Source of the DNA: Candidatus Cloacimonadota bacterium
GTDB lineage: Bacteria; Cloacimonadota; Cloacimonadia; Cloacimonadales; TCS61
Assembly (NCBI GenBank): GCA_021157525.1
Contig: JAGGWK010000080.1
Coordinates: 1-34,186, forward strand
Direction: 5' to 3'
Length of the DNA: 34,186 nucleotides
Below, piece by piece: positions 69 through 17,875 of this stretch; positions within the stretch are counted from its first letter, which is position 1, and every line of letters begins with the position of its first letter. The position numbers and the translations under genes were made by a program. The notes below the pieces were generated by a model that did no database searches, was not told where the DNA came from, and worked only from the letters and a program-made list of their open reading frames with translations.

Positions 69-2159
69 ATGTATAAAAAAGAGCCCGGTCTTGAGAAGCG
101 GATATTTTCCCTCTACATCGGCATCAGTTCGATATTGATGTTACTGCTGGTAATAACAGAGTGGCAATTGGGGAAATACAAAATTACGCAATTTGAAAAC
201 CAATATATCACCAACGGTCTCCAAGACATGAATACCGCAACCACCGCTGCCCGACAGATCGTTTATTCTCACATAGACACCCTCTCCAACACCCCCACCC
301 TTTCCCGGCTTGTACGGTTCCAGCGAGAAGCTCAGATCCGTAGACTTTTTGAAAAGATCAAAACCGATACCGCCGTCAACTTCATCATCATAGACAAACA
401 CCAAAACATTTCCTGCTGTGAAAACTGGGAACCGATAAAATCCTCTGTAGCAGACATCCTGCAAAAAAGCAAAGACGGCTCTGGAGGCTTCTTCTATTCT
501 ATCGAGTCCGGGATATTGTATGCCATAGGGTACGCAGCACTTCAGTATCAGGATGCCTATATCGGCACCGCCATCTGTACCTATCCTGTGGGGAACACAT
601 CGGCTTCCGGTGAAGATATCACCGAGCTCTACTCCCTCTTCCCTCTGCCGGACGGTTTGGCGCAAAGATATTCTTTGCTGGAAGTGAAACATATCGACCA
701 GATAAACGAGCGGGTACGTTATTCATCCCGCAGCACCATCTATCGCATTTCTTCGGCCATCGCTGTAGGTGTGCAGCCTTTACCCGGTGTAAACAATGCA
801 ACGGGCGTGTTGGGAATGGTGCTGTATCATCGGGAATTCAATGACTTTATACAGCGGGGTTTGCGTTTGGCATTCCTCCTGATAATCGGCTTTTCGCTGA
901 TGTTGATGATCATCGTGGGAAATGTGGTGAGTAAAAGGACGCTCCATCCAGTAAAGTTGCTGAGCAAGCACATGCAAAAGATCAAGGAAAATCCCCGTCT
1001 GCTTCTGCCTTTTGACCATTCCTATCACGGGGTGCTGGGAGAGATGGTTGATACCTTTAATTCTATGAATAGATCTCTGGCAGACTATGGCCAATCGTTA
1101 CTTAATTACAAGGTGACCACCGATAATCTGGATGCCGGTGTTTTCTGGCTTGATAATGAATGGAAGATTACCTTTTGCAATCCGGCTTTAGCCGTCATTT
1201 TTGAGGCCTACGACAAGTATGATGTTGTGGGACGGCAGTTTTCCGATTTTATCGTTTTGGATAATCGTACGTTAAAGCGCGCTCTGGCAGGAGAAGCTCG
1301 GGTGCCGAATTATGTCTTGAAGATAAAGGACAAGACGAAGTACATCATTATCAATTTGCGGATGATCGTAGAAGATGATGCCAAAAAGATAGTGGGATCA
1401 ATTATAGACGTCACCAATGAATTGCAGGAGAAAAAAGCCCGTGAGACCTTGGAGATCGAACTGATTCGTAGCAACAAACTAGCGGAGATTGGCAGCCGGG
1501 TAGAAGGGATCGTGCACAATCTCAATTCACCGCTCAACACCATTTTAGGCTATGCCCAGCTTATGAAAAAAGTATATCCCGACAACCAGGATATCGACAA
1601 GATCATCGCTTCGGGCAAAGTCATTTCCCAAGATGTAAAATCCCTCTTCCGCAAGATACAGGAGGGAAGCATTTCCATGAAGCAACCGGTGGATGTGAAC
1701 AAAATTCTTCGTCAGGAGATAGAACTACTCAAGCACAATCTCTTCTTTAAACACCACGTCACCCTGCATCAGGAACTGGAAGAAAACATCCCACTCATCC
1801 TGGCAGTAAGTGGCGATGTAAGTATGTGTCTTTCTAATATTTTAAACAACGCCATTCAGGCACTGGAGAAACGGCCTACCAAGGAGATATCGGTAAAAAC
1901 TTTCACCTCCGGCAACATGGTCGCCATCCAGATACAAGATACGGGAATCGGGATTTCCGAGAGTAATTTCGATGTTATTTTTGAGCCGTTGTACACCACC
2001 AAGAAGAACAAAGGTGGCAGCGGATTTGGGCTGGGATTAGCCATCAGCAAACGCATTGTCGAAGACGTTGGCGGTAGAATAGCGGTAGAATCGCAGCACA
2101 ACCATGGTAGTATCTTTACAGTGTATTTTCCAAAGTACCTGAGGTCAAATGAGGAATAA
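69..2159 (+). CDS. Membrane sensor histidine kinase (extracytoplasmic sensor, HAMP, PAS, HisKA, HATPase)
   Basis: N-terminal TM, second TM near aa 265-285, H-box VHNLNSPLNTILGYAQLM, N-box NILNNAIQAL, G1 DTGIGI, G2 GFGLGLAISKRIVEDVGG. Confidence 0.93.
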   Translation: MYKKEPGLEKRIFSLYIGISSILMLLLVITEWQLGKYKITQFENQYITNGLQDMNTATTAARQIVYSHIDTLSNTPTLSRLVRFQREAQIRRLFEKIKTDTAVNFIIIDKHQNISCCENWEPIKSSVADILQKSKDGSGGFFYSIESGILYAIGYAALQYQDAYIGTAICTYPVGNTSASGEDITELYSLFPLPDGLAQRYSLLEVKHIDQINERVRYSSRSTIYRISSAIAVGVQPLPGVNNATGVLGMVLYHREFNDFIQRGLRLAFLLIIGFSLMLMIIVGNVVSKRTLHPVKLLSKHMQKIKENPRLLLPFDHSYHGVLGEMVDTFNSMNRSLADYGQSLLNYKVTTDNLDAGVFWLDNEWKITFCNPALAVIFEAYDKYDVVGRQFSDFIVLDNRTLKRALAGEARVPNYVLKIKDKTKYIIINLRMIVEDDAKKIVGSIIDVTNELQEKKARETLEIELIRSNKLAEIGSRVEGIVHNLNSPLNTILGYAQLMKKVYPDNQDIDKIIASGKVISQDVKSLFRKIQEGSISMKQPVDVNKILRQEIELLKHNLFFKHHVTLHQELEENIPLILAVSGDVSMCLSNILNNAIQALEKRPTKEISVKTFTSGNMVAIQIQDTGIGISESNFDVIFEPLYTTKKNKGGSGFGLGLAISKRIVEDVGGRIAVESQHNHGSIFTVYFPKYLRSNEE

Positions 2160-3586
2160 TGGGAATGAATCAGAAGGAATTTGAACGATACGGAAGTCGC
2201 GCCAAGATACTCATCGTTGACGATGAATCCAATACCCGGGATATTTTTTCGCGTCATCTGATGGATGAATATGAGATTGATCAAGCATCTTCTGCCCAGC
2301 AGGCTTTGCAAAAGCTCTCACGGAACGAGTATCATATTGCCATGACGGATTTGGTGATGCCCGGTGAAGATGGTCTGGCATTATTGAAAACCATCAAAGC
2401 TCAATGGCCCCAGGTTGCGGTGATCGTGATCAGCGGAAAAGCATCTATCGAGATGGCGGTGGAGGCGATGAAATCCGGTGCAGAGGATTTTATCGAGAAG
2501 CCGGTGGAAGATCTGGAATTGATCAAAATCGTGATTCGTAAGATATTAAGGGTGAAGTGGCAATCCGAAGAGATCAAACGGCTTCGCACCATTTTGGCCA
2601 AGGAATTTGACGCCTCATCCATCGTTGGTAACAGCCTGCCCATCCAGAAGATTTTGGAGAAAGTAAGAAAAATCGCGCCACTGGACACCACCGTGTTGCT
2701 CACCGGCGAAACCGGCGTTGGTAAAGAGATGTTTGCCGACCTGATATTTCGCAACAGCAACCGCAAAGAAAAGAAATTTGTAGCGGTGAATTGCGGCGGA
2801 CTACCGGAAAATCTGCTGGAAAGCCTGCTCTTTGGCCACAAAAAGGGCTCCTTCACCGGAGCTATCCGAGATAAAATCGGCTATTTTCAAGAGGCCAATG
2901 GGGGAACACTTTTTCTCGATGAGATCACCGAAACTACGCCGACCTTCCAGATAAAACTGTTGCGGGTATTGGAAAAAGGCGTTATCCGTGCCATCGGTGA
3001 CGATAGCGACCAGGAAGTAAATGTACGCATCCTGACCGCAACGAATAAAAACCTCTTGGAGGAAGTAGAAGCGGGGAATTTCCGCGAAGACCTCTATTAC
3101 CGCCTCAATGTGATAAATATCCACATCCCGCCTCTACGGGAGCGGGTGGAAGATATTAAACTCCTCGCCTCATTTTTTATAAAGACCTTTGCCCGTAAAC
3201 ACAACAAGCCAAACCTCAGCATCTCACTGGCCGCAATGTCTGTATTGCAGACCCGGGAATGGAAAGGCAATGTGCGGGAACTGAAAAATGCCATAGAACA
3301 CGCCGTTGTCTTGTGCGCTCACAACCAGATTTTGCCGGAAGATCTGCCTGCCCATATCCTTCAGAAAAAAAACCATTCCTACCGTTTTAATGACAATCTG
3401 CTGGATTTGCCCTTTGCCACTGCGAGAGATTCCTTTGAGAAGCATTACCTCGAAGCACTGTTAGAATCCACCCATGGAGACGTCTCCATGGCAGCCCAAC
3501 AATCGGGAATCAAGCGACAAAATTTGTATGAGAAGTTTAAAAAACATGAAATTAACATCGGTGCATTTCGTCCCAATGAGCAATAA
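2159..3586 (+). CDS. Sigma-54-dependent response regulator (receiver + AAA+ + Fis-type HTH, NtrC/PilR-like)
   Basis: ILIVDDE receiver start, Walker A GETGVGKE, GAFTGA-type motif GSFTGA, GGTLFLDEI Walker B, WKGNVRELKN, C-terminal HTH DVSMAAQQSGIKRQNLYEKFKKH. TAATG overlap with the upstream kinase. Confidence 0.95.
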   Translation: MGMNQKEFERYGSRAKILIVDDESNTRDIFSRHLMDEYEIDQASSAQQALQKLSRNEYHIAMTDLVMPGEDGLALLKTIKAQWPQVAVIVISGKASIEMAVEAMKSGAEDFIEKPVEDLELIKIVIRKILRVKWQSEEIKRLRTILAKEFDASSIVGNSLPIQKILEKVRKIAPLDTTVLLTGETGVGKEMFADLIFRNSNRKEKKFVAVNCGGLPENLLESLLFGHKKGSFTGAIRDKIGYFQEANGGTLFLDEITETTPTFQIKLLRVLEKGVIRAIGDDSDQEVNVRILTATNKNLLEEVEAGNFREDLYYRLNVINIHIPPLRERVEDIKLLASFFIKTFARKHNKPNLSISLAAMSVLQTREWKGNVRELKNAIEHAVVLCAHNQILPEDLPAHILQKKNHSYRFNDNLLDLPFATARDSFEKHYLEALLESTHGDVSMAAQQSGIKRQNLYEKFKKHEINIGAFRPNEQ

Positions 3587-3603: not shown

Positions 3604-3659
3604 GTTTCCCCGCCCATACATGGGAGAGGGTGGCTTGAACGCAGTGAAAGCCGGGTGAG
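3604..3659 (+). repeat. Interspersed palindromic (REP-like) element, copy A
   Basis: gtttccccgcccatacatgggagagggtggcttgaacgcagtgaaagccgggtgag; shares GGTGGCTTGAACGCAGTGAAAGCCGGGTGAG with copy B. Confidence 0.8.
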
Positions 3660-3669
3660 ATTCCATACA

Positions 3670-3724
3670 GTTTCCCTCTCCTCGCAGGAGAGGGTGGCTT
3701 GAACGCAGTGAAAGCCGGGTGAGG
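3670..3724 (+). repeat. Interspersed palindromic (REP-like) element, copy B
   Basis: Perfect 9-bp stem CCCTCTCCT-cgc-AGGAGAGGG (3674-3694), then tGGCTTgaacgcagtgaAAGCCgggtgagg as in copy A. Confidence 0.85.
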
Positions 3725-3776
3725 TCCCCCCGCCCACACCCTGCAGGTTTGGAAAAACCTGCAAGGTGGCCGGGCT
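3725..3776 (+). repeat. Third palindromic unit, different hairpin core
   Basis: Hairpin GCAGGTTT-ggaa-AAACCTGC flanked by ccccccgcccacacc and aaggtggccggg. Confidence 0.55.
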
Positions 3777-3825
3777 TGTAATGTTTTTATGACACAACCC
3801 CGACTTGTAATGTTTTTATGACACA
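3775..3825 (+). repeat. Direct repeat, two copies of a 22-nt unit (cttgtaatgtttttatgacaca) at 29-bp period
   Basis: Copies at 3775-3796 and 3804-3825 are identical. Confidence 0.9.
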
Positions 3826-3922: not shown

Positions 3923-3938
3923 TGGCACATCTGTTGCG
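3923..3938 (+). promoter_or_regulatory. Sigma-54 (-24/-12) promoter upstream of the pilin-like gene
   Basis: TGGCAC-ATCTG-TTGC exactly matches TGGCAC-N5-TTGC spacing; lies 61 nt before the pilin ATG and downstream of an NtrC-type activator gene. Confidence 0.8.
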
Positions 3939-3998: not shown

Positions 3999-4424
3999 AT
4001 GGGAACTCAACAGATTCTTTTAATCGTACTTAGTGTAATTATTGTAGGTGCTGCCGTAGCAGTAGGTATTCAGATGTTTAATGCGCAATCAACAAGTGCA
4101 ACACGTCAGGCTGTGGCTAGTGATCTTCAAAGTTTTGCTACTATGGCTATATCGTATCTTCAGACACCCGCAAGTTTGGGTGGTGGAAATAACTCCGGCA
4201 GCAAGAGCTTTGACGTTACTAAAACAGGAAAGTGGTTAGGTTTTGATACTAAAACAACTGCAGATAATGACACCTTTGCAAATGACAACGCCACATATGT
4301 GTTAACTATTAGCACAGGATCACTTGTTATCACTGCAACGTATAAATCCGATGGCACTACAACATCTACGACGACCATCCCTACAACAGCTAAAACTCTG
4401 GCTGATGTAACAGTAGCCCTGTAA
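3999..4424 (+). CDS. Pilin-like protein with MG + hydrophobic helix N-terminus (probable major pilin-like subunit)
   Basis: MGTQQILLIVLSVIIVGAAVAVGIQMFNAQSTSATRQAVASDLQSFA...; strong SD aaggagg; followed by a hairpin and pilus assembly genes. Confidence 0.75.
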   Translation: MGTQQILLIVLSVIIVGAAVAVGIQMFNAQSTSATRQAVASDLQSFATMAISYLQTPASLGGGNNSGSKSFDVTKTGKWLGFDTKTTADNDTFANDNATYVLTISTGSLVITATYKSDGTTTSTTTIPTTAKTLADVTVAL

Positions 4425-4435
4425 CAGTACCTTTA

Positions 4436-4468
4436 TCATAGATGGCAGATATACTCTGCCATCTATGA
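4436..4468 (+). terminator. Stem-loop after the pilin-like gene (partial terminator or mRNA-stabilising/processing hairpin)
   Basis: Perfect 14-bp stem TCATAGATGGCAGA-tatac-TCTGCCATCTATGA; only a short T run follows. Confidence 0.6.
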
Positions 4469-4587
4469 TTTATAGTATGGAAAACGACTGAAATGCTATG
4501 ACTTAGACGCTCTCAAACCACATCAAATGATTTGCCGGTAATGGAGAATTTGAGATTCAGATAACCGGAGAACAGGAGGTAACGATA

Positions 4588-4665
4588 GTGGCAACCACTC
4601 AATATGCAGATGTATCACCACAACTGATTATTTCGTTACCGGAGAATAAGCAGGAACTTCAGTGA
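4588..4665 (+). CDS. Possible 25-aa leader/small protein ending in a GTGA overlap with the PilC-like gene
   Basis: AGGAGGT 7 nt before GTG; reads VATTQYADVSPQLIISLPENKQELQ-stop; stop TGA (4663-4665) overlaps the next GTG start (4662-4664). Confidence 0.4.
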   Translation: MATTQYADVSPQLIISLPENKQELQ

Positions 4666-6008
4666 GTAATGAATTCAAGTATCAGGGCGTTGCCGCCAAT
4701 GGTAAAGCCATCCAGGGTGTACTGGTTGCAGATAGTTTGGGTAAGGCAAAGAAAAAAATTGAACAACTGGCACAACGGCACCGTGTAAAGATCAATACTA
4801 TTTCCCCCCGCAAAACCTTTCTTTATACCGTTACGCTGGAAAACAAAAAAAAGAAAATCAAAGGTAGACAAAGTGCCTTCAGCAAGGAAGAAGTAGCCCA
4901 GGCCCTCAAGAAAATCGGCTATGAAAATGCGAAGATAGAACCGGTACTCATTGATATTAAGCCCAAAGTAAGCCAGGATCAGGTGATGATGTTTGTGAAT
5001 CTCTGCTCCTTTTTACTCAAAGAGAAAATGAGCTATGATAAGATTTTACGACTCCTGGCAGAAGAAGAAAATAATCTTACCATGCGAGAAGCTCTAAAGA
5101 AAATAGAATCAGAGCTGAAGAAAGGGAAGGAAGGTACTGAAGTATTTAAAAAATACGAGCATGTCTTTGGTAAATTCCCGGCCTACATGCTGGGGCTTGC
5201 CACCAAGAGTGGTAACATGGCAGAAGTCTATGATGCCACAGCCAAGTTTATGGAGCGGGATGCCGAATATCGTAAAAGTGTTAAACAGGCATTGATTTCG
5301 CCAATGGCTACCGTAGCCCTAACGTTGGCCGCAGTTGCCTACTATGTACTCAAGATTTTCCCCGATACTGCCGGTATTTTCCTCAAATTTAACCTCAAGC
5401 TGCCGCCGATGACAGCCTTTACTCTGAAGATGAGTGATTACTTGCAGGCCACTTGGTGGATATGGCTCCTGGTAATTGCCATACCAATATCGGCTGTTCT
5501 CATGTGGTGGCGCACGCCAAAGGGCAAAGTGCAGCGAGATAAATTAATTATTAACCTCCCCATTATTGGTCACTTGATGCATAAGTCATCAATCGAGATT
5601 TTCTTCCGGGTTTTTGCTGCTATTTATTCGGGAGCAGAAAACAATATAGAGACCCTCTCTGCATCTGCAGAAGCCTGTAGAAATGCCTATATGGAAAAAG
5701 GGGTGAAAGAAATTGCCATCCCATTAATGCTGAAAGATGGTATGTCTCTAGTACCGGCATTGGCCAATGCCGATGTCTTTAACAGAAGCACTCTCAGCCG
5801 TCTCAAATCTGGCTCCGAAACCGGTAACGTTCTGGCGTCTGCCCGGCAGATTGCCAGCTTTTATGAAAAAGAAACCACCTATAAGATGGACAATCTCATC
5901 CAATACATACAAACCATCATCGGTTTCTTTATTGGTATTGTGATTACTCTTTTAACCATGGTATCGGCTGAAATTGCGTTAATCGATACCTCGAGCATGA
6001 TGAACTGA
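4662..6008 (+). CDS. Type IV pilus / type II secretion inner-membrane platform protein (PilC/GspF family)
   Basis: Two GspF-type domains (LKEKMSYDKIL..., GLATKSGNMAEVYDATAKFMERDAEYRKSVKQALISPM...; later repeat ...LKSGSETGNVLASARQIASFYEKE...) with three TM segments. Confidence 0.9.
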   Translation: MSNEFKYQGVAANGKAIQGVLVADSLGKAKKKIEQLAQRHRVKINTISPRKTFLYTVTLENKKKKIKGRQSAFSKEEVAQALKKIGYENAKIEPVLIDIKPKVSQDQVMMFVNLCSFLLKEKMSYDKILRLLAEEENNLTMREALKKIESELKKGKEGTEVFKKYEHVFGKFPAYMLGLATKSGNMAEVYDATAKFMERDAEYRKSVKQALISPMATVALTLAAVAYYVLKIFPDTAGIFLKFNLKLPPMTAFTLKMSDYLQATWWIWLLVIAIPISAVLMWWRTPKGKVQRDKLIINLPIIGHLMHKSSIEIFFRVFAAIYSGAENNIETLSASAEACRNAYMEKGVKEIAIPLMLKDGMSLVPALANADVFNRSTLSRLKSGSETGNVLASARQIASFYEKETTYKMDNLIQYIQTIIGFFIGIVITLLTMVSAEIALIDTSSMMN

Positions 6009-7789
6009 TGTTGAAACTAACCCGCTACTCTGAACTCCTTCTGAAGAAGGGAATCGTTGAAAAAGACATCCTGGAAAAAGCAGCCATCATTCAAGCCGGA
6101 GAGGCCGAAAACCCGAGGAAACTGGAAGAGATCCTGGTAACCGATTTCAAGATAGACCACGACCTTGTATATGGCACATTGGCAGAGCTTTATGCCTTTC
6201 GTAAGATAAAGATCAACACCGAACAATTTGAGTCTAACCAGCTGGCAAAGACTAAAGAGTTGCTGAACAGTTTCCCGGAAAAGCTCCGTAATGAATTAAT
6301 ATACAAGAAGATCCTTCCTTACCGGGCATCCACAGGACGCAAGGGCTCTCTCATCGTATTGGCAGTAGATACCACCGACCGCATTGTGCAGCAAATACCT
6401 TTGCAAACAGAGTATAAAAAGTACGAAGTTGTCTATTGCCCGTTGGCAACCATGGAACAACTCATCGGCATGGTAGCTCCTCAGAAAAATGAATTTTTGG
6501 AGATTCTGGAAGAAGTCGGCGAACAGATGAACGAGCTTGACGATGTTTCAAAAGACTCCGGTTTAGACGAATATGCCCTGGATGAGGAGATCAATAAAAG
6601 CCTGCTGGTAAACCTTTTTGAAGGCTGCATTCTGGAAGCAGTACGCCGGGGAGCCAGTGACATCCACATCATGCCCTTCGGCCGCTCAAGCGTGGATTTC
6701 TATTTCCGGATAGATGGCAAACTGATGCGCTGGCATCGTCAGGAAAACACTTCCCCGGAAGCCATGGCCGCCGTGGTGAAAGACCGCAGTTCCGGGGTTG
6801 ACCGTTTTGAGCGGGACAACGCTCAGGACGGATTTACCCAGCGCCTGGTAGATGGCCATCTCATCCGTTTCCGTATATCCATCATACCTATCGTTTCATC
6901 GGAAATCGAGCGGCGCTACGAAAGTGTGGTTATCCGTGTTATTGATGACCGAAATGTGATCACCGATTTACGGAAACTGGGTTTCCAGGCCAAAGCTGAA
7001 AAAGACTTTTTAAAATCCATATCCAAATCAAAAGGGATTATCTTGGTTACCGGCCCCACCGGTAGTGGTAAAAGTACTACCTTGATGGCTGCGCTGTATA
7101 ATGTTATCGACCCATCAAAATGCGTGCTTACCGTTGAAGACCCGGTGGAATACGTTATCCGTGGCGCACGACAGCTCAAAATCAGTCATAAGATGAATTT
7201 CGAAGAAGCCATACGCGCCATTTTGCGTCATGACCCAGACATCGTGATGGTGGGCGAGATTCGTGATAAAATCACAGCAGAGATCGCCATCAAACTGGCA
7301 AACACGGGTCATCTCACCTTCTCTACTTTACATACCAATGATGCGCCCAGTGCTGTTTCCCGTTTGTACAAAATGGGTGCGGAGCCATTTTTACTGGCCT
7401 ATGCCATAAACATCATCATTGCCCAACGTCTGGTTCGCAAACTTTGCCCCGAATGTCGCCAACCCCTCAGCAAAGAAAAGTATCCTGCTGCCCTGGAAAT
7501 GGGCATCACACAAGAAGAACTGGATAAAGGACTGGTTTACGAAGCTGGCCCGGGATGCAAAAAATGTAATGGGGGCTACAAAGGTCGTGTAAATATCTGC
7601 GAAGCCCTTTACTTTACTCCCGAGATCAGACAGTCCATCGTCAATTCCGGCAAAGAAATTGACGAAGATGAAATACGCCGGATCGCTGAAGAGCAAGGTA
7701 TGCTCTCTTTGAAGGATTCCGGCCTCGACCGCATCCGCAACGGGCTCTCTTCTTTGGAAGAAATAGCCTACGCAACATCAGAGGATTAG
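6008..7789 (+). CDS. Type IV pilus / type II secretion assembly ATPase (PilB/GspE family, MshEN N-terminus)
   Basis: Walker A GPTGSGKST, Walker B DPDIVMVGEIRD, His box TFSTLHTNDAPSAVSRL, tetracysteine CPEC...CKKC. Confidence 0.96.
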   Translation: MLKLTRYSELLLKKGIVEKDILEKAAIIQAGEAENPRKLEEILVTDFKIDHDLVYGTLAELYAFRKIKINTEQFESNQLAKTKELLNSFPEKLRNELIYKKILPYRASTGRKGSLIVLAVDTTDRIVQQIPLQTEYKKYEVVYCPLATMEQLIGMVAPQKNEFLEILEEVGEQMNELDDVSKDSGLDEYALDEEINKSLLVNLFEGCILEAVRRGASDIHIMPFGRSSVDFYFRIDGKLMRWHRQENTSPEAMAAVVKDRSSGVDRFERDNAQDGFTQRLVDGHLIRFRISIIPIVSSEIERRYESVVIRVIDDRNVITDLRKLGFQAKAEKDFLKSISKSKGIILVTGPTGSGKSTTLMAALYNVIDPSKCVLTVEDPVEYVIRGARQLKISHKMNFEEAIRAILRHDPDIVMVGEIRDKITAEIAIKLANTGHLTFSTLHTNDAPSAVSRLYKMGAEPFLLAYAINIIIAQRLVRKLCPECRQPLSKEKYPAALEMGITQEELDKGLVYEAGPGCKKCNGGYKGRVNICEALYFTPEIRQSIVNSGKEIDEDEIRRIAEEQGMLSLKDSGLDRIRNGLSSLEEIAYATSED

Positions 7790-7792
7790 GCC

Positions 7793-8236
7793 ATGGGAAC
7801 AGGACAAATGATTTTGGTGCTATTGGGTGCTATGCTTTTTTCATCCATCCTGATAACCACATACAATGGTCTGGCAGACCAGGCAGAGCTGACGTATAAC
7901 GGGCTCAATCTTTTGCAGGCCCAAAAGCTGGCAAACCGCTATCTTCAGCAGGTGGACTCCGAGATTTTGGGAAATGTGGTTTCCTATGATGACATCTACA
8001 CGACATATCACAATAACACCTCTTATATCTCAGATATGTTTAGCGGTATGACCTTTCGCACAAACATCCGGACTAATTACTGTGATGCAACCGGCGATAC
8101 CACCGCAGCTGCCGGGTCCACCGATTATATGCGTGTGGATGTGCGGATTCGTTTCACTTCAGAATCCGGTAGATCCTTGCAGGCGGGTACTTCAGATGCA
8201 CCCTTCAGCAGGGTGATAGCAAACCTGAACTTTTAG
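7793..8236 (+). CDS. Minor pilin-like protein with MG N-terminus
   Basis: MGTGQMILVLLGAMLFSSILITTYNG...; in operon with PilB and further MG-proteins. Confidence 0.6.
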   Translation: MGTGQMILVLLGAMLFSSILITTYNGLADQAELTYNGLNLLQAQKLANRYLQQVDSEILGNVVSYDDIYTTYHNNTSYISDMFSGMTFRTNIRTNYCDATGDTTAAAGSTDYMRVDVRIRFTSESGRSLQAGTSDAPFSRVIANLNF

Positions 8237-8245
8237 GGAGATTAT

Positions 8246-8854
8246 ATGGGTTCAATGTTAGATGTTATTGGCGCTACGATAATCGGCGCTGTTTTCATAT
8301 TGGCCATGGTTACCGCTGTGTACAATGTGCAGGTAATCACCTACAATTCTAACATGATGCTCACCACCACCCAGATAACCGACAAGGTGATTACCGCTAT
8401 CGATTCCTTTTATGTACCAAACCTGGGCCTGGGAGTGACATCCGGTGATGCGATAAAAGAAGCGGGAGAACATAGTTTTAAATTTAAGGGGATCATCGAA
8501 GGGTCCGTGATCGATACGATATTGATCCGCAGAGAAGGTACTGCAGGAAATTATACCCTTAATATCTACAAGGAGCTCCCCGGGGGATCGCTATCCCAAC
8601 AGCTGGGACCCTTTAACCTTACCGACAGTGAAAACAATCTGAAATTCACCTATTTTAAGTATGTACTCAGCGGCGGCACCTACACAGCCACGCCAATTAC
8701 CGGGAGTGCAGACATTCCCGATATTCGATTTGTACAAATAGACCTGGATATGAAACAAAATATGGTTCGCAATGATGTCGATGCCAGAGACCTGCATAAT
8801 CACATACAAACATGGGTCTATTTTAAAAGCCTCTACATCACATTGGGGCCTTAA
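8246..8854 (+). CDS. Minor pilin-like protein with MG N-terminus
   Basis: MGSMLDVIGATIIGAVFILAMVTAVYNVQVITYNS...; SD agggaga upstream. Confidence 0.6.
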   Translation: MGSMLDVIGATIIGAVFILAMVTAVYNVQVITYNSNMMLTTTQITDKVITAIDSFYVPNLGLGVTSGDAIKEAGEHSFKFKGIIEGSVIDTILIRREGTAGNYTLNIYKELPGGSLSQQLGPFNLTDSENNLKFTYFKYVLSGGTYTATPITGSADIPDIRFVQIDLDMKQNMVRNDVDARDLHNHIQTWVYFKSLYITLGP

Positions 8855-8863
8855 TCGATAAAT

Positions 8864-8895
8864 AGTTTGACACAATTCTGCTCGAACTGTTTTTT
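8864..8895 (+). terminator. Weak hairpin plus T-run; could alternatively contain a promoter
   Basis: AGTTTGA-cacaattctgc-TCGAACT then T6; the same segment contains TTGACA. Function ambiguous. Confidence 0.3.
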
Positions 8896-8945
8896 ATGAG
8901 TGTAGATTTGTTCTTTTAATAGTTAAAGAAGTAAATGGAGGAAAT

Positions 8946-10640
8946 ATGGGAAAAGTCATTATTATTATGGCAGTCGTTTTTACGGTGATTTTTGCTACCG
9001 TAACGCTAACGATTAAATCCAGATCTAATGTAATTCCAGACCTTTTGACCGAAAGGATGGCATCAGATAATGCATCAAATTTAGGAGCGTATGCTTTGAA
9101 GTATGCAATATCTCGATTGAAAAAAATAGACAACTCACCTAAGGGCTCTGACCCTGGTGATATTATCGATCAGAGCACGGTGATAGCCTATGAAGGGACC
9201 TTTGAAGTTTTCTCCAATGGCTTTATCGACAACATCGTGTGGGATTTTGTGAAATCGGATGATTACTCCTATCCCGATGGAGATACCACGAAGGAACCGC
9301 AACAAAATGGCAACAATTGGGGCAAAAACCGCTATCGCTGGCGTGGTGGCTCTCATGCACTCAATACGACAATTTCACCTTTCACTTTCTCTGTGGCAAG
9401 TGTTACATCTATGTACCTCCCCGCAGCAAGAAGTGGCATTGGTACTCATGGACACAATGGCAACGGAAACAACGGCAATGGAAATGGCAATGGAAATGGA
9501 AATGGAAACAACGGAAATGGCAATGGAAACACCGGTACTGGAAACCAGGGCAATGGAAAACCCGTAGGCAATGCCGGAGGAAATTCCGGTGGAAACGGTA
9601 ACGGAAATTCCGGTGGAAACAGTTATCAACATTGCTGGGCTTGGAAATATGCCTGGGGTCAAGATGGCAATGCGCCATCAGGATCTACCGGCGCTCAGGG
9701 AGATGATTATCGCATCGTACAAATCATTGCAGACGTCAGCTGGATTACCGAGGGCAAACTGTACACTCATCAGGCTGAAGCGGTGGTAGAACTGGTTGAC
9801 GGCAATATCCAGGGAGTAATTGGTTACTGGCCCCTCGATGAAGGCTCCGGCAGCACTGTCACCGATCAATCTGACGTTGGTAATGAAGACGGTACATTGA
9901 AACATATGAAAAGCTCTGCCTGGGTTGACGGCTATGACGGAACCGCACTAAACTTCGACGGTTCAAACGATTATGTCGACCTTGGCAAAGGTGTGGATGA
10001 CGATATCAGCACTGCCTTTACCGTGGCTTCATGGGTAAAGCCAGACAGGGCGTTTCTTTTTGACTGGGGCCTGATAGCCTGCAGTTCACACCAAAACGGT
10101 AGGAAAGCAGATTGGTATTTGAGAAATTTCGTGAATGATGTGAGCTTACCAAAATGGAGCTGGGATAGAGGCTTCTTTTGGGATCCTATTGCACGCTATA
10201 CAAAATATGCCTTTGGAATACGTACCGGAAATAACAGCTACTCGGAAACCATAGTGAAAATGGATGCGTTGGCAAATCCATCCCTGGACATCTATGACTG
10301 GCATTATGTGGCAGGTACCTACAATGGAGACTACTCCAATTCTCAGGCAGAGATCACTGTTCAGGTGGTAGGCAAAGAACTTAAGAGTTCTAAGTTGGTA
10401 AGCAAAATGATCTCCCATGGCAATGATAACATCGTAGCTATTGGCGGTATCGGGCCCAATAGACGTAGGTGGTTTAGCCGTCTGCTCAACAGCCTTCGCT
10501 GCTTCGATGGTACACTGGATGAAGTACGGCTTCTAAACCGTTCGATGCCTGATGACGAGCTTGCATCAATGGCCATGACGACAGCCAGCAGCTCAGGAGG
10601 CGGGGACTCTTCATTCAAGATAGTATATTGGGATGACTAG
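8946..10640 (+). CDS. Pilin-like protein with Gly-Asn repeat linker and LamG/concanavalin-like C-terminal domain (candidate pilus adhesin)
   Basis: MGKVIIIMAVVFTVIFATVTLTI N-terminus; (GN)n linker; GVIGYWPLDEGSGSTVTDQSDVGNEDGTL...GTALNFDGSNDYVDLG... LamG-type signature; C-terminus FKIVYWDD. Confidence 0.75.
   Translation: MGKVIIIMAVVFTVIFATVTLTIKSRSNVIPDLLTERMASDNASNLGAYALKYAISRLKKIDNSPKGSDPGDIIDQSTVIAYEGTFEVFSNGFIDNIVWDFVKSDDYSYPDGDTTKEPQQNGNNWGKNRYRWRGGSHALNTTISPFTFSVASVTSMYLPAARSGIGTHGHNGNGNNGNGNGNGNGNGNNGNGNGNTGTGNQGNGKPVGNAGGNSGGNGNGNSGGNSYQHCWAWKYAWGQDGNAPSGSTGAQGDDYRIVQIIADVSWITEGKLYTHQAEAVVELVDGNIQGVIGYWPLDEGSGSTVTDQSDVGNEDGTLKHMKSSAWVDGYDGTALNFDGSNDYVDLGKGVDDDISTAFTVASWVKPDRAFLFDWGLIACSSHQNGRKADWYLRNFVNDVSLPKWSWDRGFFWDPIARYTKYAFGIRTGNNSYSETIVKMDALANPSLDIYDWHYVAGTYNGDYSNSQAEITVQVVGKELKSSKLVSKMISHGNDNIVAIGGIGPNRRRWFSRLLNSLRCFDGTLDEVRLLNRSMPDDELASMAMTTASSSGGGDSSFKIVYWDD
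9450..9620 (+). repeat. In-frame hexanucleotide-type repeat (GGHAAY-like units) encoding a Gly-Asn-rich linker
   Basis: Runs of ggcaatggaaatggcaatggaaatggaaatggaaac... translating to NGNGNNGNGNGNGNGNGNNGNGNGNTGTGNQGNG. Confidence 0.9.
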
Positions 10641-10692
10641 GTTCAATTTCGATTTTGTAGCAGATACTTCATAATATAACAGGGAGGTGAGT

Positions 10693-11577
10693 ATGGGTAA
10701 GGTAACATTGATTTTAGCTGTTTTGTTTATTACCATACTTATCTCTTTTTTTATTCACTTTTCGGAAAATCCCCCCATTGTGGCAGAACTTTCTTCAGAT
10801 AACGTTGAACGTTCCAATGCCAGGAATATCAGCAATTTTGCCCTGCAATACGGCATCCAGCAACTTCTGGATGGCAATGTAACCTTTGCCGACAGTACCC
10901 ATGGCATGATAAATGATTTCTCGTCTTTTCGATCATTGGAAGGGTATGTTGACAGTATAAAATTTTCAAACAACACAACCACTGGAACCATTACAATCGA
11001 ATCTTTCTCCCGTGTTGGCAAGTACCGGCACAGAAGCAGCGCCGAGATAGAAATCGTTCTGGGAACCGACGCTCTTTCAAACATCACAGCCGCCATCGTG
11101 ACAGGCGGCAACATCACCCTCAAAGCAAAGTCGGTTATCACCGGTGACATCCATGTAGAGACCGAGCTCAATTTTGACGAAATTCTGGGCATGACCAGGG
11201 AAAACCTCATTGCTCATGCACAAAGCATCGGAGCCTATTTTGTAAACCCGCCAAACAGCCAGGCAATGACCGACAGCCTGATGTGGGTTGATGGTAACTT
11301 CAAAATTACGAACAATTGGACAGGAAGCGGTATTCTCATTGTAGATGGCGACCTTGATGTTGCGGCACAGATGGAATTTGATGGAATCTTGATCGTTTTT
11401 GGCCATCTTAACATGGCTGCATTTTCTTCTATAACCGGGGCTGTATTCATCATCGGTGATGAAACATCTACCCTGAGTAGTCATTCTGAAATCGTCTTTG
11501 ATGCGCAAGTGGTGAGCAGTTCCTTCAGCTCACTGCCATCCAATGCTTCTTATAAAATACTCTATTGGCGAGAATAA
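10693..11577 (+). CDS. PilX-like minor pilin-like protein with MG N-terminus (start revised from 10687)
   Basis: From ATG 10693: MGKVTLILAVLFITILISFFIHFSENPPIVAEL...; N-terminal region resembles the 8946 protein (GAYALKYAISRL vs SNFALQYGIQQL); C-terminus YKILYWRE. Confidence 0.65.
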   Translation: MGKVTLILAVLFITILISFFIHFSENPPIVAELSSDNVERSNARNISNFALQYGIQQLLDGNVTFADSTHGMINDFSSFRSLEGYVDSIKFSNNTTTGTITIESFSRVGKYRHRSSAEIEIVLGTDALSNITAAIVTGGNITLKAKSVITGDIHVETELNFDEILGMTRENLIAHAQSIGAYFVNPPNSQAMTDSLMWVDGNFKITNNWTGSGILIVDGDLDVAAQMEFDGILIVFGHLNMAAFSSITGAVFIIGDETSTLSSHSEIVFDAQVVSSSFSSLPSNASYKILYWRE

Positions 11578-11595: not shown

Positions 11596-12501
11596 ATGGA
11601 AAAAAAGCAATTAACCCCCGAAGTCAGTATGTACCAATGGTGGTCTAAAATCCGCTGGTTCATCATCTTGGTAATGTTTGCCGTTGGCATTCTGAGAGTT
11701 GGACAAATTCATCAAACCTTCCCGGTGATGGTCTTCATCTTAACCTTTGTGGGGATGGCAGTTCTCAACTTCCTTTTCCAATTGCAAATAGTAAGTTCGA
11801 ACAATTTCTTTGGAACAATACAGATTGTGTTTGATATCGTTTTTGCCACCATGGTCGTGCACCTCACCGGAGGTCTCGAAAGCTCCTTTGTGTGGATTTA
11901 TCTGCTGGCGGTTATCACCGCTGGCTTCGGTATCGAGCGTGCTGGGGGATTTATTGCAGCAATGATCAGTAGTTTCTGCCTGCTTCTGCTCATCCTGAGC
12001 TACAACTACGGTTGGCTGATTCAGGTTGATGGCCGCACCTTTAACACCGATGTCCCCACACAGACCATTTTTCTTATTTCCTATACGGGATTGTTCAACG
12101 GAATGGCTTTCATCGCAAGTTTTGTGGGTGACACAATCAAAAAGCTTGGCAGTGGCCACGATAACAGTAAGAAATCTGGCATATTAGCTGTAGAAGAACT
12201 TTCTCCAGAAGAACAGAGTGAGTTGGAAATCAAAGAAAATCTTGACGCATATCACGAGTTGGTGCAGTTAGCAACCACAATGTCGAGCCTTGATCACGAC
12301 ATAAACAATCATCTTACGGTGATTTCATTATCAACACGGCGAGTGAAAAAGGCAGCAGACGATTATCATGATGAGAAGTTACAAAAATCGAGTGTACAGA
12401 TGACGGAAGCACTCAAACGCATCCAGAATGTATTAGGCGAATTTGAGAAGCTTAAGCAACAAGAGCTGGTAGCAAAAGAACGACAGAAACGACAGGGATA
12501 G
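11596..12501 (+). CDS. PilS-like multi-TM sensor with a DHp (HisKA-like) helix pair but no HATPase domain
   Basis: Six or so TM segments, then SSLDHDINNHLTVISLSTRRVKKAADDYHDEKLQKSSVQMTEALKRIQNVLGEFEKL; ORF ends without N/G1/G2 boxes. Confidence 0.75.
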   Translation: MEKKQLTPEVSMYQWWSKIRWFIILVMFAVGILRVGQIHQTFPVMVFILTFVGMAVLNFLFQLQIVSSNNFFGTIQIVFDIVFATMVVHLTGGLESSFVWIYLLAVITAGFGIERAGGFIAAMISSFCLLLLILSYNYGWLIQVDGRTFNTDVPTQTIFLISYTGLFNGMAFIASFVGDTIKKLGSGHDNSKKSGILAVEELSPEEQSELEIKENLDAYHELVQLATTMSSLDHDINNHLTVISLSTRRVKKAADDYHDEKLQKSSVQMTEALKRIQNVLGEFEKLKQQELVAKERQKRQG

Positions 12502-12504
12502 AAG

Positions 12505-13359
12505 ATGAAAAAACACATATTAGTAGTTGATGACGAACAATCAATACGAGAGGTTTGTAAGGACTTTCTCGAAGAAGAGGGCTACAAAGTATCTCTCGCG
12601 ATTGATGGCCAGGATGCTCTGGAAAAGATGGACTATGACGATTTTGACCTCTACATCTTAGATATGAACATGCCTCGCATTGGTGGCTTTGAATTGATGA
12701 AGAAAATCAAGAAGAAGCATCCCCTCGCCGTTATCGTGATACTCACCGGATATTCCAGCATTGAAGGTGCAGTGAAAGCCGTGCATGCTGGCGCTTTTGA
12801 ATATATCTCCAAACCCATAAACGCAGACGAGCTGATGGATGTAGTAAGTCGGGGCATGAAATACTCCGAAGACCTCTATGGGCCTCTGCAACAAGCCTTC
12901 GATCCCGGTACAAACACCATCACCAAAGGTGAACCAAACATTCTGCATGGTTTTTCTCCAGAAGATAAAATGGAGTTTATGGCCCTGGGGCGCCTCCAAA
13001 AATACGAGATCGGCGACATCGTTCCCCTTTCTGATGAAAAATACGGCAGCATCGGTATCCTCGAGAGCGGGGAAGTCTCAGTCTGGCTGAGCAATACCAC
13101 TGTGGATTACCTGCAAAAATGGGATTCCTGGGGTGAAGAAAACTTCATCCTGGCAAGCTCTATTGTCACGGTTTTACGTGCCGAATCCACGGTAAAAGTG
13201 CGTCATTTTACCCGTAAACAGCTATTGGACTTCTTTGCCTATAAAGGAGAAAAATTGTTCAAGCGGTTTATCATAAACCTTGTAAACGCAATCTTCCTTA
13301 AATGGCGTAAATCCGTACAACGCATCGTGATGCTGAAACTGGTCACCGGCGATAATTAG
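12505..13359 (+). CDS. Response regulator: receiver domain + cNMP-binding-like (CAP_ED fold) C-terminal domain
   Basis: HILVVDDEQSIREVC, phospho-Asp DLYILDMNMPRIGG, ILTGYSS, SKPIN; C-terminal FMALGRLQKYEIGDIVPLSDEKYGSIGILESGEVSVWL... resembles a CRP-like beta-roll. Confidence 0.8.
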   Translation: MKKHILVVDDEQSIREVCKDFLEEEGYKVSLAIDGQDALEKMDYDDFDLYILDMNMPRIGGFELMKKIKKKHPLAVIVILTGYSSIEGAVKAVHAGAFEYISKPINADELMDVVSRGMKYSEDLYGPLQQAFDPGTNTITKGEPNILHGFSPEDKMEFMALGRLQKYEIGDIVPLSDEKYGSIGILESGEVSVWLSNTTVDYLQKWDSWGEENFILASSIVTVLRAESTVKVRHFTRKQLLDFFAYKGEKLFKRFIINLVNAIFLKWRKSVQRIVMLKLVTGDN

Positions 13360-13381: not shown

Positions 13382-14593
13382 ATGAGTTTATCATTCACCC
13401 CGGAAATGCAGGTAACGCTTCCTGAATATCTCCACGGAACTGCCCGTTTTCAAAACATCAATAAACTTATATCTTTCAATGCTCACTGGAAAAAAGAAGC
13501 CTACGATCACCTTACCACTTTTTTACGCCATATGCGAGAAATCGAAGCTTCAGATATCGACATCGGTGGCCCGGGAACAAAGGGCTACATCTGGTATCGG
13601 GTGTTTGGGAAAAAGTCTCCCGACAAAACCCTCCCCCGCTATTCAGCAGACGAAGTTACGGCAATCCTACTGAGCATACTCACTGACGAACAGAAAGTAT
13701 CCCTCTTTAAAAACAAAAATGTCGATTTTTCTCTGAGCACGAAACTTGCTGAAGATGAACGGCCAAGCCGCTTTCGTGGTGACGTGTACTATGAAAATAA
13801 CAACCTCGTAGCAAACTTCCGCCGCATCAATCAAACCCTTTTTCCCATAGAAAGTATGGGGTTTCCTGAGCCGATTTTGCAGCGGATGAATATTCTCTAT
13901 GAGAAATCCGGACTGGTCCTGGTTACCGGAATTACCGGATCGGGAAAAAGTAGCACCCTGGATGCCGTGGTAAACCTCAACAACAGCTCAAGCGATTCTC
14001 ACATCGTGATCATAGGTAATCCCATCGAGTTTGTGCATGAATCAAAGCGGTGCATCGTGCGGCATCGTGAAATAGGCGAGGACGTGATAAGTTTCCAGGC
14101 CGGGGCAATCGAAGCCCTGCGCCAAGACCCTGATATCATCGTCGTTGGTGAGATGCGGGACCCGGAAACAATCGCCACCGTGCTGGAAGTTACAGACAGC
14201 GGTCATAAAGTGTTTACAACGATGCATACCAGTTCTGCCATAGACAGTATTCACAGGATCGTGGGAGAATTTCCACCCCGGGAGCAGGATCGTATCCGCT
14301 TGCGTCTGGCAGACACATTAAAAGTTTGCATCTCCCAGAAACTGGTCCCCAGTAAAGACGGAAGACGAGTGTTGGTAAAAGAGATTCTCTCGGTTACAGA
14401 ATCGGTAAAAGCAGCAATACGCAACCAGAATATTGGTGAAATCTATCAGATGTTAACCGAAGGGAAAAAATACGGGATGCTCACTCTGGAGCAAGATCTC
14501 TTCGATCATTATCGCAAAGGAACAATCACTCGAGAATCAGCATTGAACTTTGCTAACAACCGGAAGCGCATGGTGCAGCTTCTTTCATACTAG
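13382..14593 (+). CDS. pilT: Type IV pilus retraction ATPase (PilT family)
   Basis: Walker A GITGSGKSSTLD, Walker B DPDIIVVGEMRD, VFTTMHTSSAIDSIHRIVGEFPPREQDRIRLRLADTLK, PilT-type AIRN motif (AIRNQNIGEIYQML). Confidence 0.9.
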   Translation: MSLSFTPEMQVTLPEYLHGTARFQNINKLISFNAHWKKEAYDHLTTFLRHMREIEASDIDIGGPGTKGYIWYRVFGKKSPDKTLPRYSADEVTAILLSILTDEQKVSLFKNKNVDFSLSTKLAEDERPSRFRGDVYYENNNLVANFRRINQTLFPIESMGFPEPILQRMNILYEKSGLVLVTGITGSGKSSTLDAVVNLNNSSSDSHIVIIGNPIEFVHESKRCIVRHREIGEDVISFQAGAIEALRQDPDIIVVGEMRDPETIATVLEVTDSGHKVFTTMHTSSAIDSIHRIVGEFPPREQDRIRLRLADTLKVCISQKLVPSKDGRRVLVKEILSVTESVKAAIRNQNIGEIYQMLTEGKKYGMLTLEQDLFDHYRKGTITRESALNFANNRKRMVQLLSY

Positions 14594-14598
14594 AAATT

Positions 14599-16953
14599 AT
14601 GGCAGTAAAGAAAAAACGTTATTCTTTCGGGATTTTTCAAGACGGCCTGAATATCAAGATCGCCCAACTGGGGTGTAATAATGGGGTCGTTCGTATCCAG
14701 AAGCTTGAAGAAATTGAGCTCAAATATCCGTTGTATCTCAAAGAGACACCTCGGGATATGGAATTTGACGATTCTGCCGAGTTTACTCTTCCGGACATCG
14801 ATGATCAGGATGAATTCAGCATACCTGAATTTGAAGAATTTGATACCGCCGATACCTTGGAAGAGATCACCAAAGAAGAAGCGATCACCGGCATTTCTGA
14901 GCTGGAAAAATTTGTGATGAAATTCAAACTGGAACGTGGCCGATTGGCCATGAACACCAGTGATGACCAGATATCCTATCATCCCTTTGATGCCGATTTT
15001 GCCCATGGTAACCTGCTTAAAAAGCTTAAGCACGAATATCTCTCAAAAGACGAACTCAAAAAAGGGAACTACTCCCTGGATTACATAATCAATCCGGATA
15101 AATCCGGTTTGGCTTTTGTACATCGAGGCCGTTTTGAGCTCTTGGACGCTCTGCAGGAGATCAATCCCATCGTCTCGAAAAAGAGCTTTTACTACGGGTT
15201 CATCGACACCAATGAAATCGCACTGATTAATCTGGTGCGGGCAAATTATGAATTCCCCGAAGATGAATATGTGCTTATCCTCTACATCGGTATCGACTAT
15301 AAGGTAGGTATCGTGATGAGGGGGGGGAATCACTTACGGACATTCCCCCTCATTGTTCCCGAGTCTGATCCAATTACCATGCGGCAAGCGATTTACTCCA
15401 AAGTGATGCTGGAGCAGGAAACCAGCAACACCTTAATTTCCCAGAATATTGTTTTGGCCGGTGACTATGTTACCGATGATGATTTGGAGTTTTATATCAG
15501 TAAAAACCGGGAGGGTCAGCCTGCTGTACGCCTGGAGCTCATCAACCCCGATATCATTTTAGAAGACGGCGTGAGCTATCCCAAGGATAAAATTGCTCGC
15601 TTTGCCATACCGCTGGCTCTTGCCTGGCGCGCCATGCATCCTCGATACAAAGATTTTTATAAATGCAACCTTCTTCCCCGTAGTATCGTGGAAGGACAGA
15701 AGTATTTTAAGATCGGATGGCACGGGTTTTTAGTGATGGCACTGATTTTTTTCTTTGCTCTTTCGGGAACAACAAAGAACCTTCAGCTCAAACAGGAGCT
15801 GGAGCAGGTGCGGCAACTCAATAAAGGCCTGGAAGTGGAATTACGGGAAAATCGTGGCATCATCGCCAAGCTGAATCAGGTGAAATCAGAACTTTCGATA
15901 TTGCAGGAAAACCTGAAGAAGATCACAGAAATCACCGGCAGAAAAAACCAGTGGCACTACATCCTCACCATGCTTTCAGACACCATGAGAAGCAAAAAAA
16001 TAAGCTGGATATCAAATCTGACCGGTAATGATCAGAGTTTTGAAGTTTCGGGATATTCTACCCAACGTAGGAACATTATCGATTTTTCTCAGATGTTCCC
16101 GGATGGTAGGATCACTGCTATCAACGAACATGAGATTGCAGACATTCCCCTGTGGGAATTCAGTATCAGCTTTTCCTATCCCGACCCTGATGATATCATG
16201 AAGGAAAAACGCACCGACATCCATACAACGGAGGTGGTACCAATGGAACAGGTGGCAGTTGCACCAAAAGCTGAATCCAAGCCTCCGGTGCAAAAAAACC
16301 TTCATGGTTTTGAAGTGCAGCTCCTCGCCAGCAAGGATTATAACCAGGTAGAGTCCTTGAAAAAAATCGTGGACGCTGCCGGTTACTCTACCAGAATCGG
16401 CATCTTTACGACAAAAGGAGCAACGATTTACCGGCTGAGGATAGATACGGTGCTGTCAAAATCAGAAGCCATCGCTTTAGGTGAGACGGTGAAGCGTTCT
16501 ATTCCGCAGGTATCGGATTATTGGATTGATAAAGCCACAGAGGGACCTTCGGTAACGGAGCCCGGTAACAGGGTTGTATCTGCCACGCAACCCGTCACCT
16601 ACAACGAGCTGAAAAACCTCTATTACAAGGGAAAATACCAGCAAGCTATTGATGGTTTCAGCGCATACCTTACGGCACATCCATCCCACCCGACAACCTA
16701 CACGGTAACCTACCTGATGGGCGAATGTTACTATCAGTTGGGTCAATTAAACAAAGCTATAGAGTATTTTAAAAAAATAGAAACTCAACGAGGCTCCAAA
16801 CATCCGGACGCCCTCATCATGCTGGGAAATTGCTATTATAAAATCGGAGACTTTGAGAATGCAAAAGGATATTGGACAACGCTCACAACCAGTTATCCAT
16901 CACACAAATACAGTAAAATTGCAATGCGCAAGCTCGCGCAATTAGAAAATTAA
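14599..16953 (+). CDS. PilM-PilN (GspL-like) fusion with C-terminal SPOR domain and TPR repeats
   Basis: N-terminal actin-like region; internal KCNLLPRS (PilN NLLP-like motif) before TM WHGFLVMALIFFFALSG and coiled coil; SPOR-like HGFEVQLLASKDYNQVESLKKIVDAAGYSTRI...YRLRIDTVLSKSEAIALGETVKR; TPR YYKGKYQQAIDGFSAYLTAHPSHP..LMGECYYQLGQLNKAIEYFKKI. Confidence 0.75.
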   Translation: MAVKKKRYSFGIFQDGLNIKIAQLGCNNGVVRIQKLEEIELKYPLYLKETPRDMEFDDSAEFTLPDIDDQDEFSIPEFEEFDTADTLEEITKEEAITGISELEKFVMKFKLERGRLAMNTSDDQISYHPFDADFAHGNLLKKLKHEYLSKDELKKGNYSLDYIINPDKSGLAFVHRGRFELLDALQEINPIVSKKSFYYGFIDTNEIALINLVRANYEFPEDEYVLILYIGIDYKVGIVMRGGNHLRTFPLIVPESDPITMRQAIYSKVMLEQETSNTLISQNIVLAGDYVTDDDLEFYISKNREGQPAVRLELINPDIILEDGVSYPKDKIARFAIPLALAWRAMHPRYKDFYKCNLLPRSIVEGQKYFKIGWHGFLVMALIFFFALSGTTKNLQLKQELEQVRQLNKGLEVELRENRGIIAKLNQVKSELSILQENLKKITEITGRKNQWHYILTMLSDTMRSKKISWISNLTGNDQSFEVSGYSTQRRNIIDFSQMFPDGRITAINEHEIADIPLWEFSISFSYPDPDDIMKEKRTDIHTTEVVPMEQVAVAPKAESKPPVQKNLHGFEVQLLASKDYNQVESLKKIVDAAGYSTRIGIFTTKGATIYRLRIDTVLSKSEAIALGETVKRSIPQVSDYWIDKATEGPSVTEPGNRVVSATQPVTYNELKNLYYKGKYQQAIDGFSAYLTAHPSHPTTYTVTYLMGECYYQLGQLNKAIEYFKKIETQRGSKHPDALIMLGNCYYKIGDFENAKGYWTTLTTSYPSHKYSKIAMRKLAQLEN

Positions 16954-16954
16954 T

Positions 16955-17875
16955 ATGCCATATGTAATACGTAATACACTGATTTTAACTGGATTGTTGA
17001 TACTGATCTTGCTGATAAGTACAGTAACCAATGCCTTTACAAACAAAGACATCAAAGCTATTCGGGCAACCTACAATCAAAACCGGAAAATGCTCGATAA
17101 TTTGAAGCGTACAAATCCTGATCTGAACAATCAAGAACAGATCATGGCCAGTCTGGAAGCGACCAGACAACGAGCACGGGATAACAATAAGCTGTTTATC
17201 AAGGAAGACAACCCCACCATCACCTTTCAGTATCTCATCGATATTTGTGATGTATTTTGCCCTGATGTGGAATTTAACTTCCTCATCAAGGGGTCGGGAA
17301 TTTCTCCCAATAATGTCAATTTCAACGCCTATGAAATCAATGGTGATGCATTGCTCAGTTCTTTGCATTTCTTTATTTTCCAGTTGGAATACCAGTCACC
17401 ATTGGTCACGATAGAAGACATCCAGCTTTCTGAGCAAAATGTGGCAGAAGATGATCGCGTCTCCTTCTCTTTCATGATGAACGTCTATTATGATCCGGAA
17501 AATGGCGTGGACATCAATGAGATCAAGACACGGCGTTTTACCTTTAATGACCTGGCCTATAATCCCTTCCGCTCCCGCATTTATCAGGCCCGCAGCGGAG
17601 AAGGTGATGAAAACCTTATTAATGTCTTCAATCTCGAATTAATCGGCCTCACACCGGAAAAAGCCTTCATCCGCAATGGAGATGGCAAGATACTTACATT
17701 GGAAGCCGGTGATAAAGTAAAATGGGGATATGTGAATTATATCGATTGGAAGAAACAGTTAGTCGCTTTCAAGATTAACCGCATCGGTATCAAACAAGAT
17801 TATATCGTATATTTAGATAAGTTTAAGCAAGAAGAAGCAGATCGGTATCGTTACTCAAACAAGGATAGACTATGA
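16955..17875 (+). CDS. PilO-like protein fused to a PilP/GspC-like domain
   Basis: Single N-terminal TM, coiled coil, ferredoxin-like region; C-terminal LINVFNLELIGLTPEKAFIRNGDGKILTLEAGDKVKWGYVNYIDWKKQLVAFKINRIGIKQDYIVYLDK resembles a PilP homology domain. Confidence 0.6.
   Translation: MPYVIRNTLILTGLLILILLISTVTNAFTNKDIKAIRATYNQNRKMLDNLKRTNPDLNNQEQIMASLEATRQRARDNNKLFIKEDNPTITFQYLIDICDVFCPDVEFNFLIKGSGISPNNVNFNAYEINGDALLSSLHFFIFQLEYQSPLVTIEDIQLSEQNVAEDDRVSFSFMMNVYYDPENGVDINEIKTRRFTFNDLAYNPFRSRIYQARSGEGDENLINVFNLELIGLTPEKAFIRNGDGKILTLEAGDKVKWGYVNYIDWKKQLVAFKINRIGIKQDYIVYLDKFKQEEADRYRYSNKDRL

Follow-up and report, generated by a model that had tools for sequence, protein, structure and literature searches.

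Can a type IV pilin be translated without a leader peptide, and be used without ever meeting a prepilin peptidase? The question is raised by five genes lying between positions 3999 and 11577 of a 34,186-base contig (G000:C11; hereafter the window) from a 2.23 Mb, 98.5% complete Candidatus Cloacimonadota genome, each encoding a protein that starts Met-Gly and runs directly into a hydrophobic helix. Canonical prepilins have a basic leader ending in Gly, followed by F/M-T-L-x-E, and PilD cuts after the Gly. The reading that we favor, at a probability of roughly 0.8, is that these genes encode one major and four minor pilins, leaderless and independent of PilD, that belong to a second, type IVa pilus (T4aP)-like pilus; the filaments and the mature N-termini are what we infer from the evidence below. 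The five genes are:

3999..4424, + strand: candidate leaderless major pilin (MGTQQILLIVLSVIIVG...), of a 71-member family (A1) with an invariant start; AlphaFold2 (AF2) model with helix 3-55 and a beta sheet, predicted local distance difference test (pLDDT) 79
7793..8236, + strand: candidate leaderless minor pilin (MGTGQMILVLLG...), of a 39-member family with G/N/T/H at residue 2 and E/D/Q at aligned position 5 in 38/39
8246..8854, + strand: candidate leaderless minor pilin (MGSMLDVIGATIIGA...) with a predicted PilW/GspJ-like fold (AF2 pLDDT 83; Foldseek), of a 21-member family with D/E at residue 6 in 21/21
8946..10640, + strand: candidate leaderless large minor pilin (MGKVIIIMAVVF...) and putative tip adhesin; C-terminal Laminin_G_3 (7.1e-12) at about 9957-10562
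10693..11577, + strand: candidate leaderless minor pilin (MGKVTLILAVLF...), of a 22-member family with a Met-Gly-Lys/Arg start in 22/22

The starts of all five proteins are as given in the original prediction, and its view that they are unlikely to be mis-called is borne out by upstream stops, Shine-Dalgarno (SD) placement and an almost complete lack of alternative start codons. In-frame stops lie 6, 1, 3, 25 and 6 codons upstream of the genes at 3999, 7793, 8246, 8946 and 10693, respectively. The ATGs at 7793 and 8246 follow in-frame stops, those of the PilB gene and of the 7793 gene, by one and three codons respectively, so a leader is impossible at both. The sole upstream ATG, GTG or TTG among the five genes, GTG 10687, overlaps the SD and would yield MSMGK, a product extended by Met-Ser and still leaderless. 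Alternative upstream starts giving a normal leader were therefore rejected on the basis of the upstream stops and the start-codon scan, for the five genes as for nearly all aligned members of the four families. Residues 3-24 of the five proteins are strongly hydrophobic (Kyte-Doolittle mean 1.6-2.3) and, although seven of the 38 ATG-initiated open reading frames of at least 100 amino acids in the window start with MG, a long hydrophobic stretch follows in exactly these five. None of the window proteins matches PF07963, and the hydrophilic leader ending in Gly/Ala that marks a class III signal peptide is absent from the five and impossible in nearly all aligned family members.

The leaderless start is conserved well beyond this genome. 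We located relatives of the 3999 protein at 59 loci, almost all of them in Cloacimonadota; the ATG-Gly start is present in 71 of 71 aligned members, an SD precedes 69 of the starts and 68 members lack any further start codon upstream, a degree of conservation that argues against chance. As N-terminal peptide patterns were among the queries, part of the invariance of the first residues was built into the search; the whole-genome profile search, and a GTG-Gly start in the closed genome described below, are less subject to this bias. The 7793 family likewise contains no alternative start (39/39), with an in-frame stop at a median of one codon upstream, and across the four aligned families (71, 39, 21 and 22 members) the stops, the SD placement and the near-constant lack of alternative starts leave no space for a leader.

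The first residues themselves are less uniform. Of the 39 members of the 7793 family, 23 have Asn as residue 2, 9 have Gly, 6 Thr and 1 His, while aligned position 5 is Gln in 21, Glu in 15, Asp in 2 and Arg in 1, although the register is loose because Gln is residue 4 in 11 of the Gln-bearing members. The acidic members mostly read M-N-[LMF]-[MLF]-E-M (e.g. MNLMEM...), resembling a mature pilin in which the initiator Met is residue 1, and methionine aminopeptidase should be blocked by Asn at residue 2. Glu at mature position 5 is common among canonical pilins, though some lack it. The earlier remark that Glu is missing from position 5 is correct for the five window proteins but not for the 7793 orthologues, of which 15/39 carry Glu and 2/39 Asp, counted from Met1. 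Residue 2 of the 8246 family may be S, G, A, I, Q, H or N (Gly in 4/21), whereas residue 6 is D/E in all 21; the 10693 family starts Met-Gly-Lys/Arg whether its start codon is ATG, GTG or TTG. Gly2 is therefore kept throughout only in the 3999 and 10693 families, and the Met-Gly start shared by all five proteins in this genome is not a family trait for 7793 and 8246. One locus (L063, G071/G078) holds nine 3999-family genes in a single 20 kb stretch. Its genome (possibly contaminated, 8%) has fifteen such matches and gave no PilD hit; the copies possibly form an antigenic or functional repertoire.

The original prediction considered Gly2 as a possible processing site, in which case the leader would be shortened to Met-Gly and a PilD acting in trans would cut after Gly2. 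This explanation draws on the invariance of Gly2 in two families, on one profile alignment that sets Gly2 at the canonical Gly-1, and on the window's own genome. The accompanying statement that this DNA encodes no prepilin peptidase holds for the window but not for the genome: the proposed search for a PilD homologue elsewhere found exactly one, on another contig (C82), within a complete canonical type IV pilus (T4P) cluster comprising PilA, PilT, PilV/PilW-like, PilM-N-O-P-like, PilQ, PilB and PilC along with the genome's sole A24 match (genes lacking a Pfam test were named by eye). The PilA of this cluster has an ordinary leader, MFKNIKNKKG, before FSLIEL.

We surveyed 149 genomes (requested completeness at least 90%) from the class to which the Ignavibacteria locus L071 belongs. 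A profile search detected a 3999-family pilin in 79 of them, whereas an A24 peptidase (PF01478) was present in just 7, all among the pilin carriers; 72 of the 79 pilin-bearing genomes thus gave no A24 match. N_methyl pilins were found in 10/149 genomes, distributed as 7/7 genomes with PilD and 3/142 without. In this class, then, leader-bearing pilins track PilD, while most carriers of leaderless ones have no PilD detected. Three genomes (G075, G111 and G139) combine leader-bearing N_methyl pilins with no A24 match, which may reflect draft gaps or a divergent peptidase. A strong PilB-family ATPase match, by comparison, occurs in 80/149 genomes, 77 of which carry the leaderless pilin (pilin against PilB: 77/2/3/67, Fisher p=5e-36, with counts that ignore relatedness), so the anticipated co-occurrence with PilB is seen in 77 of the 79 carriers. 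Pilin and PilD are unassociated in Cloacimonadota (53/4/16/2, p=0.63); this phylum alone cannot decide the matter because only 4/57 carriers are without PilD, a number within draft incompleteness. Among Neomarinimicrobiota, PilD was not detected in 4 of 10 pilin carriers. As a measure of sensitivity, PF01478 gave matches in 69/75 Cloacimonadota and 12/14 control genomes.

One of these carriers, G217, is a closed genome, a single contig of 3,300,414 bp taken as Melioribacter roseus. Its locus L090 encodes two leaderless pilins, one of them starting at GTG, then PilC, PilB, PilT, PilM- and PilN-like proteins and a secretin, and neither PF01478 nor PF07963 has a match genome-wide. The published analysis of this organism reported pilB, pilC, pilT and pilQ, likewise listed pilA and pilD as 'not found' and deemed the T4P system probably incomplete (PMC3534657). 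The leaderless pilins beside pilC are candidates for the missing pilA. Together with the lack of association in Cloacimonadota and the replacement of Gly2 by N, T, H, S, A, Q or I in the 7793 and 8246 families (Gly2 in only 9/39 and 4/21, respectively), the 72 carriers without an A24 match, the closed genome included, make cleavage by PilD after Gly2 improbable.

A different, unrecognised protease could instead take off one or two N-terminal residues, a proposal compatible with the invariant Gly2 of two families and with a genome-wide search limited to PF01478. The conserved genes of the aligned clusters, however, include no candidate protease gene, and the variable residue 2 of the remaining families speaks against one common specificity; we give this proposal slightly less credence than PilD in trans.

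No pilin model in Pfam or NCBIfam matches any of the five. The assignment of the proteins as pilins was addressed by structure prediction. A long N-terminal helix with an antiparallel beta-sheet head, the pilin fold, is predicted for both the 3999 and 8246 proteins, with a clear structural match only for 8246: Foldseek paired its model with the type IV-like pilin TTHA1219 (probability 1.00) and with XcpV/XcpW (0.91). The 3999 model has a predicted template modelling score of 0.69, and the best PDB sequence match of its family profile is geopilin, at a weak E=0.017. The five proteins might alternatively be ordinary bitopic membrane proteins of the machine, with the true pilins encoded elsewhere, a view that can appeal to the fact that filaments were not observed and that the 3999 model lacks a strong match to a solved structure. 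Yet the PilD-less carriers are almost all devoid of leader-bearing N_methyl pilins as well, the 3999 family occurs in tandem copies (nine in L063), and the TTHA1219/XcpV-W fold of 8246, the sigma-54 promoter motif before the 3999 gene and the near one-to-one occurrence with PilB all argue for pilins, leaving the bitopic alternative the least probable of those considered. The Laminin-G C-terminus of the 8946 protein fits a putative role as tip adhesin; between its helix and the Laminin-G domain lies an Asn-Gly repeat (NGNGNGN...; 9455-9630), likely a flexible spacer.

The leaderless pilin class raised in the original prediction therefore exists, recurring in Cloacimonadota, Neomarinimicrobiota and the Ignavibacteria-containing class and co-occurring with a PilB/PilC machine. 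We think it probable, though with less assurance than for the five proteins themselves, that it represents a separate T4P lineage, spanning at least three phylum- or class-level groups, whose subunits are never matured by a prepilin peptidase and in which a ribosome-made N-terminus, trimmed at most by methionine aminopeptidase, replaces cleavage and N-methylation. In such a lineage, translation would start at the helix, making the first residue translated the first, or nearly the first, residue of the assembled subunit. The helix would insert N-in without a basic leader, after which the formyl group would be removed; the initiator Met would be taken off by methionine aminopeptidase where residue 2 is Gly, Ser, Ala or Thr, and kept where it is Asn, His, Gln or Ile. 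Met excision or retention would thus make cleavage by a prepilin peptidase unnecessary. PilB and PilC would then polymerise the subunits, the secretin would pass the filament, PilT may retract it, and the 8946 protein may sit at the tip as an adhesin. In canonical systems, removal of the leader is described as an obligatory step before type IV filaments can be assembled (PMC10191384); as the leader blocks assembly until it is cut, a leaderless subunit would be expected to escape the block.

Several observations weigh against PilD-independent pilins. The window's genome encodes PilD, so processing in trans could occur in it. The search for PilD relied on one Pfam model, and drafts make up most of the genomes. 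The invariant Gly2 of the 3999 and 10693 families is not explained by plain Met removal. Finally, the best solved-structure match of the 3999 model is the pilin 3soj, at a weak E=0.66, and its register relative to canonical pilins is ambiguous: profile alignments place Gly2 near the canonical Gly-1 or one residue off, and hhalign comparisons that set the 3999 family against the genome's own canonical PilA, and against the 7793 family, were weak and did not fix it.

The genes around the five encode the T4aP machine core (PilB-type ATPase, PilC platform, secretin and PilT ATPase), together with regulators:

69..2159, + strand: membrane sensor histidine kinase (PAS, HATPase) with a PilS-like role; HATPase_c 9.5e-24; upstream of the pilin in many loci
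2159..3586, + strand: sigma-54 dependent NtrC-type response regulator with a PilR-like role; Sigma54_activat 2.3e-66, Response_reg 6.6e-26; conserved upstream of the pilin
3923..3938, + strand: sigma-54 promoter motif TGGCACATCTGTTGCG, 76 nt before the 3999 ATG
4662..6008, + strand: PilC/T2SSF platform protein; PF00482 5.1e-26
6008..7789, + strand: PilB-type extension ATPase; PF00437 8.3e-97; best PDB match PilB 6olj, 4.3e-88
11596..12501, + strand: PilS-like transmembrane sensor without a HATPase domain; 6TM_PilS 1.4e-7; found in 31 loci
12505..13359, + strand: response regulator with a weak cyclic-nucleotide-binding-like domain; PF00072 7.6e-32; PF00027 0.0022, below cut-off
13382..14593, + strand: PilT-type retraction ATPase; PF00437 2e-34; best PDB match PilT 2ewv, 2.9e-66
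14599..16953, + strand: PilM/PilN-like protein with SPOR and TPR domains, role assigned by position; SPOR 3.3e-5; Amuc_1101 PilM-like 1.6e-6, well below cut-off
16955..17875, + strand: PilO/PilP (GspM-like) inner-membrane protein, conserved in position; GspM 7.5e-5, below cut-off
17872..19053, + strand: PilQ-type secretin; PF00263 1.7e-26; IV_pilus_PilQ 9.8e-24, the best of the secretin models

The order pilin, PilC, PilB, minor pilins, PilS-like transmembrane sensor, response regulator, PilT, PilM-N and secretin is conserved in dozens of loci. Across both strands of the window, only the 3923 site comes within one mismatch of the sigma-54 motif, and a site of this quality lies within 250 nt upstream of 46/71 3999-family orthologues, compared with 0.11% of mononucleotide shuffles. 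The sensor at 11596-12501 retains a remnant HisKA region with no HATPase and adjoins the response regulator in the 31 loci, as a sensor without a kinase domain. A repeated element (gagagggtggcttgaacgcagtgaaagccgggtgag) occupies 3610-3780, before the pilin promoter, and a similar translated motif recurs at about 32340-32640. Large surface proteins are encoded at 20858-24304, 24375-26591 and 30063-32273, the first with a type IX secretion sorting domain and the latter two with NPF-containing tails that are similar by eye. A second PilT-like ATPase of the 13382 type is present away from both pilus clusters (L011, 5556-6767; G000:C68).

Searches of open-licence PubMed Central papers brought up no account of type IV pilins that are leaderless or independent of PilD. 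If the proposal is correct, the rule that every type IV pilin needs trimming may not hold, and tools based on signal peptides miss a set of FCB-group surface filaments. A PilD-free lineage would reveal which parts of the pilin N-terminus assembly truly needs (we know of no established purpose for pilin N-methylation) and would account for T4P loci dismissed as incomplete, such as that of M. roseus; as this organism is cultured, the claim is testable.

Among known systems, the minor pilins TTHA1219 and GspI/GspJ (XcpV/XcpW) resemble the 8246 protein in predicted fold, but are made as prepilins and then cleaved, whereas the 8246 protein starts at its helix. MSHA loci are without a prepilin peptidase and systematically co-occur with another system that supplies one (PMC6668835). 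The present cluster likewise lacks a peptidase; unlike MSHA, most carriers in one class have none detected at all. ArlF and ArlG of the archaellum are not known to have a leader. They consist of an N-terminal membrane helix and a soluble domain, and their genes accompany those of a type IV filament machine (PMC8667602). This layout is the same as that of the proteins described here, but ArlF and ArlG are archaeal stator proteins and not the main filament subunit. The T4aP system shares PilB, PilC, PilT, candidate PilM/N/O-like proteins (sub-threshold matches in conserved positions), a PilQ-type secretin, sigma-54/two-component control and several minor pilins; the present system differs in its five leaderless subunits, a cluster without PilD, carriers in many of which PilD is undetected, and a major pilin family without Glu5.

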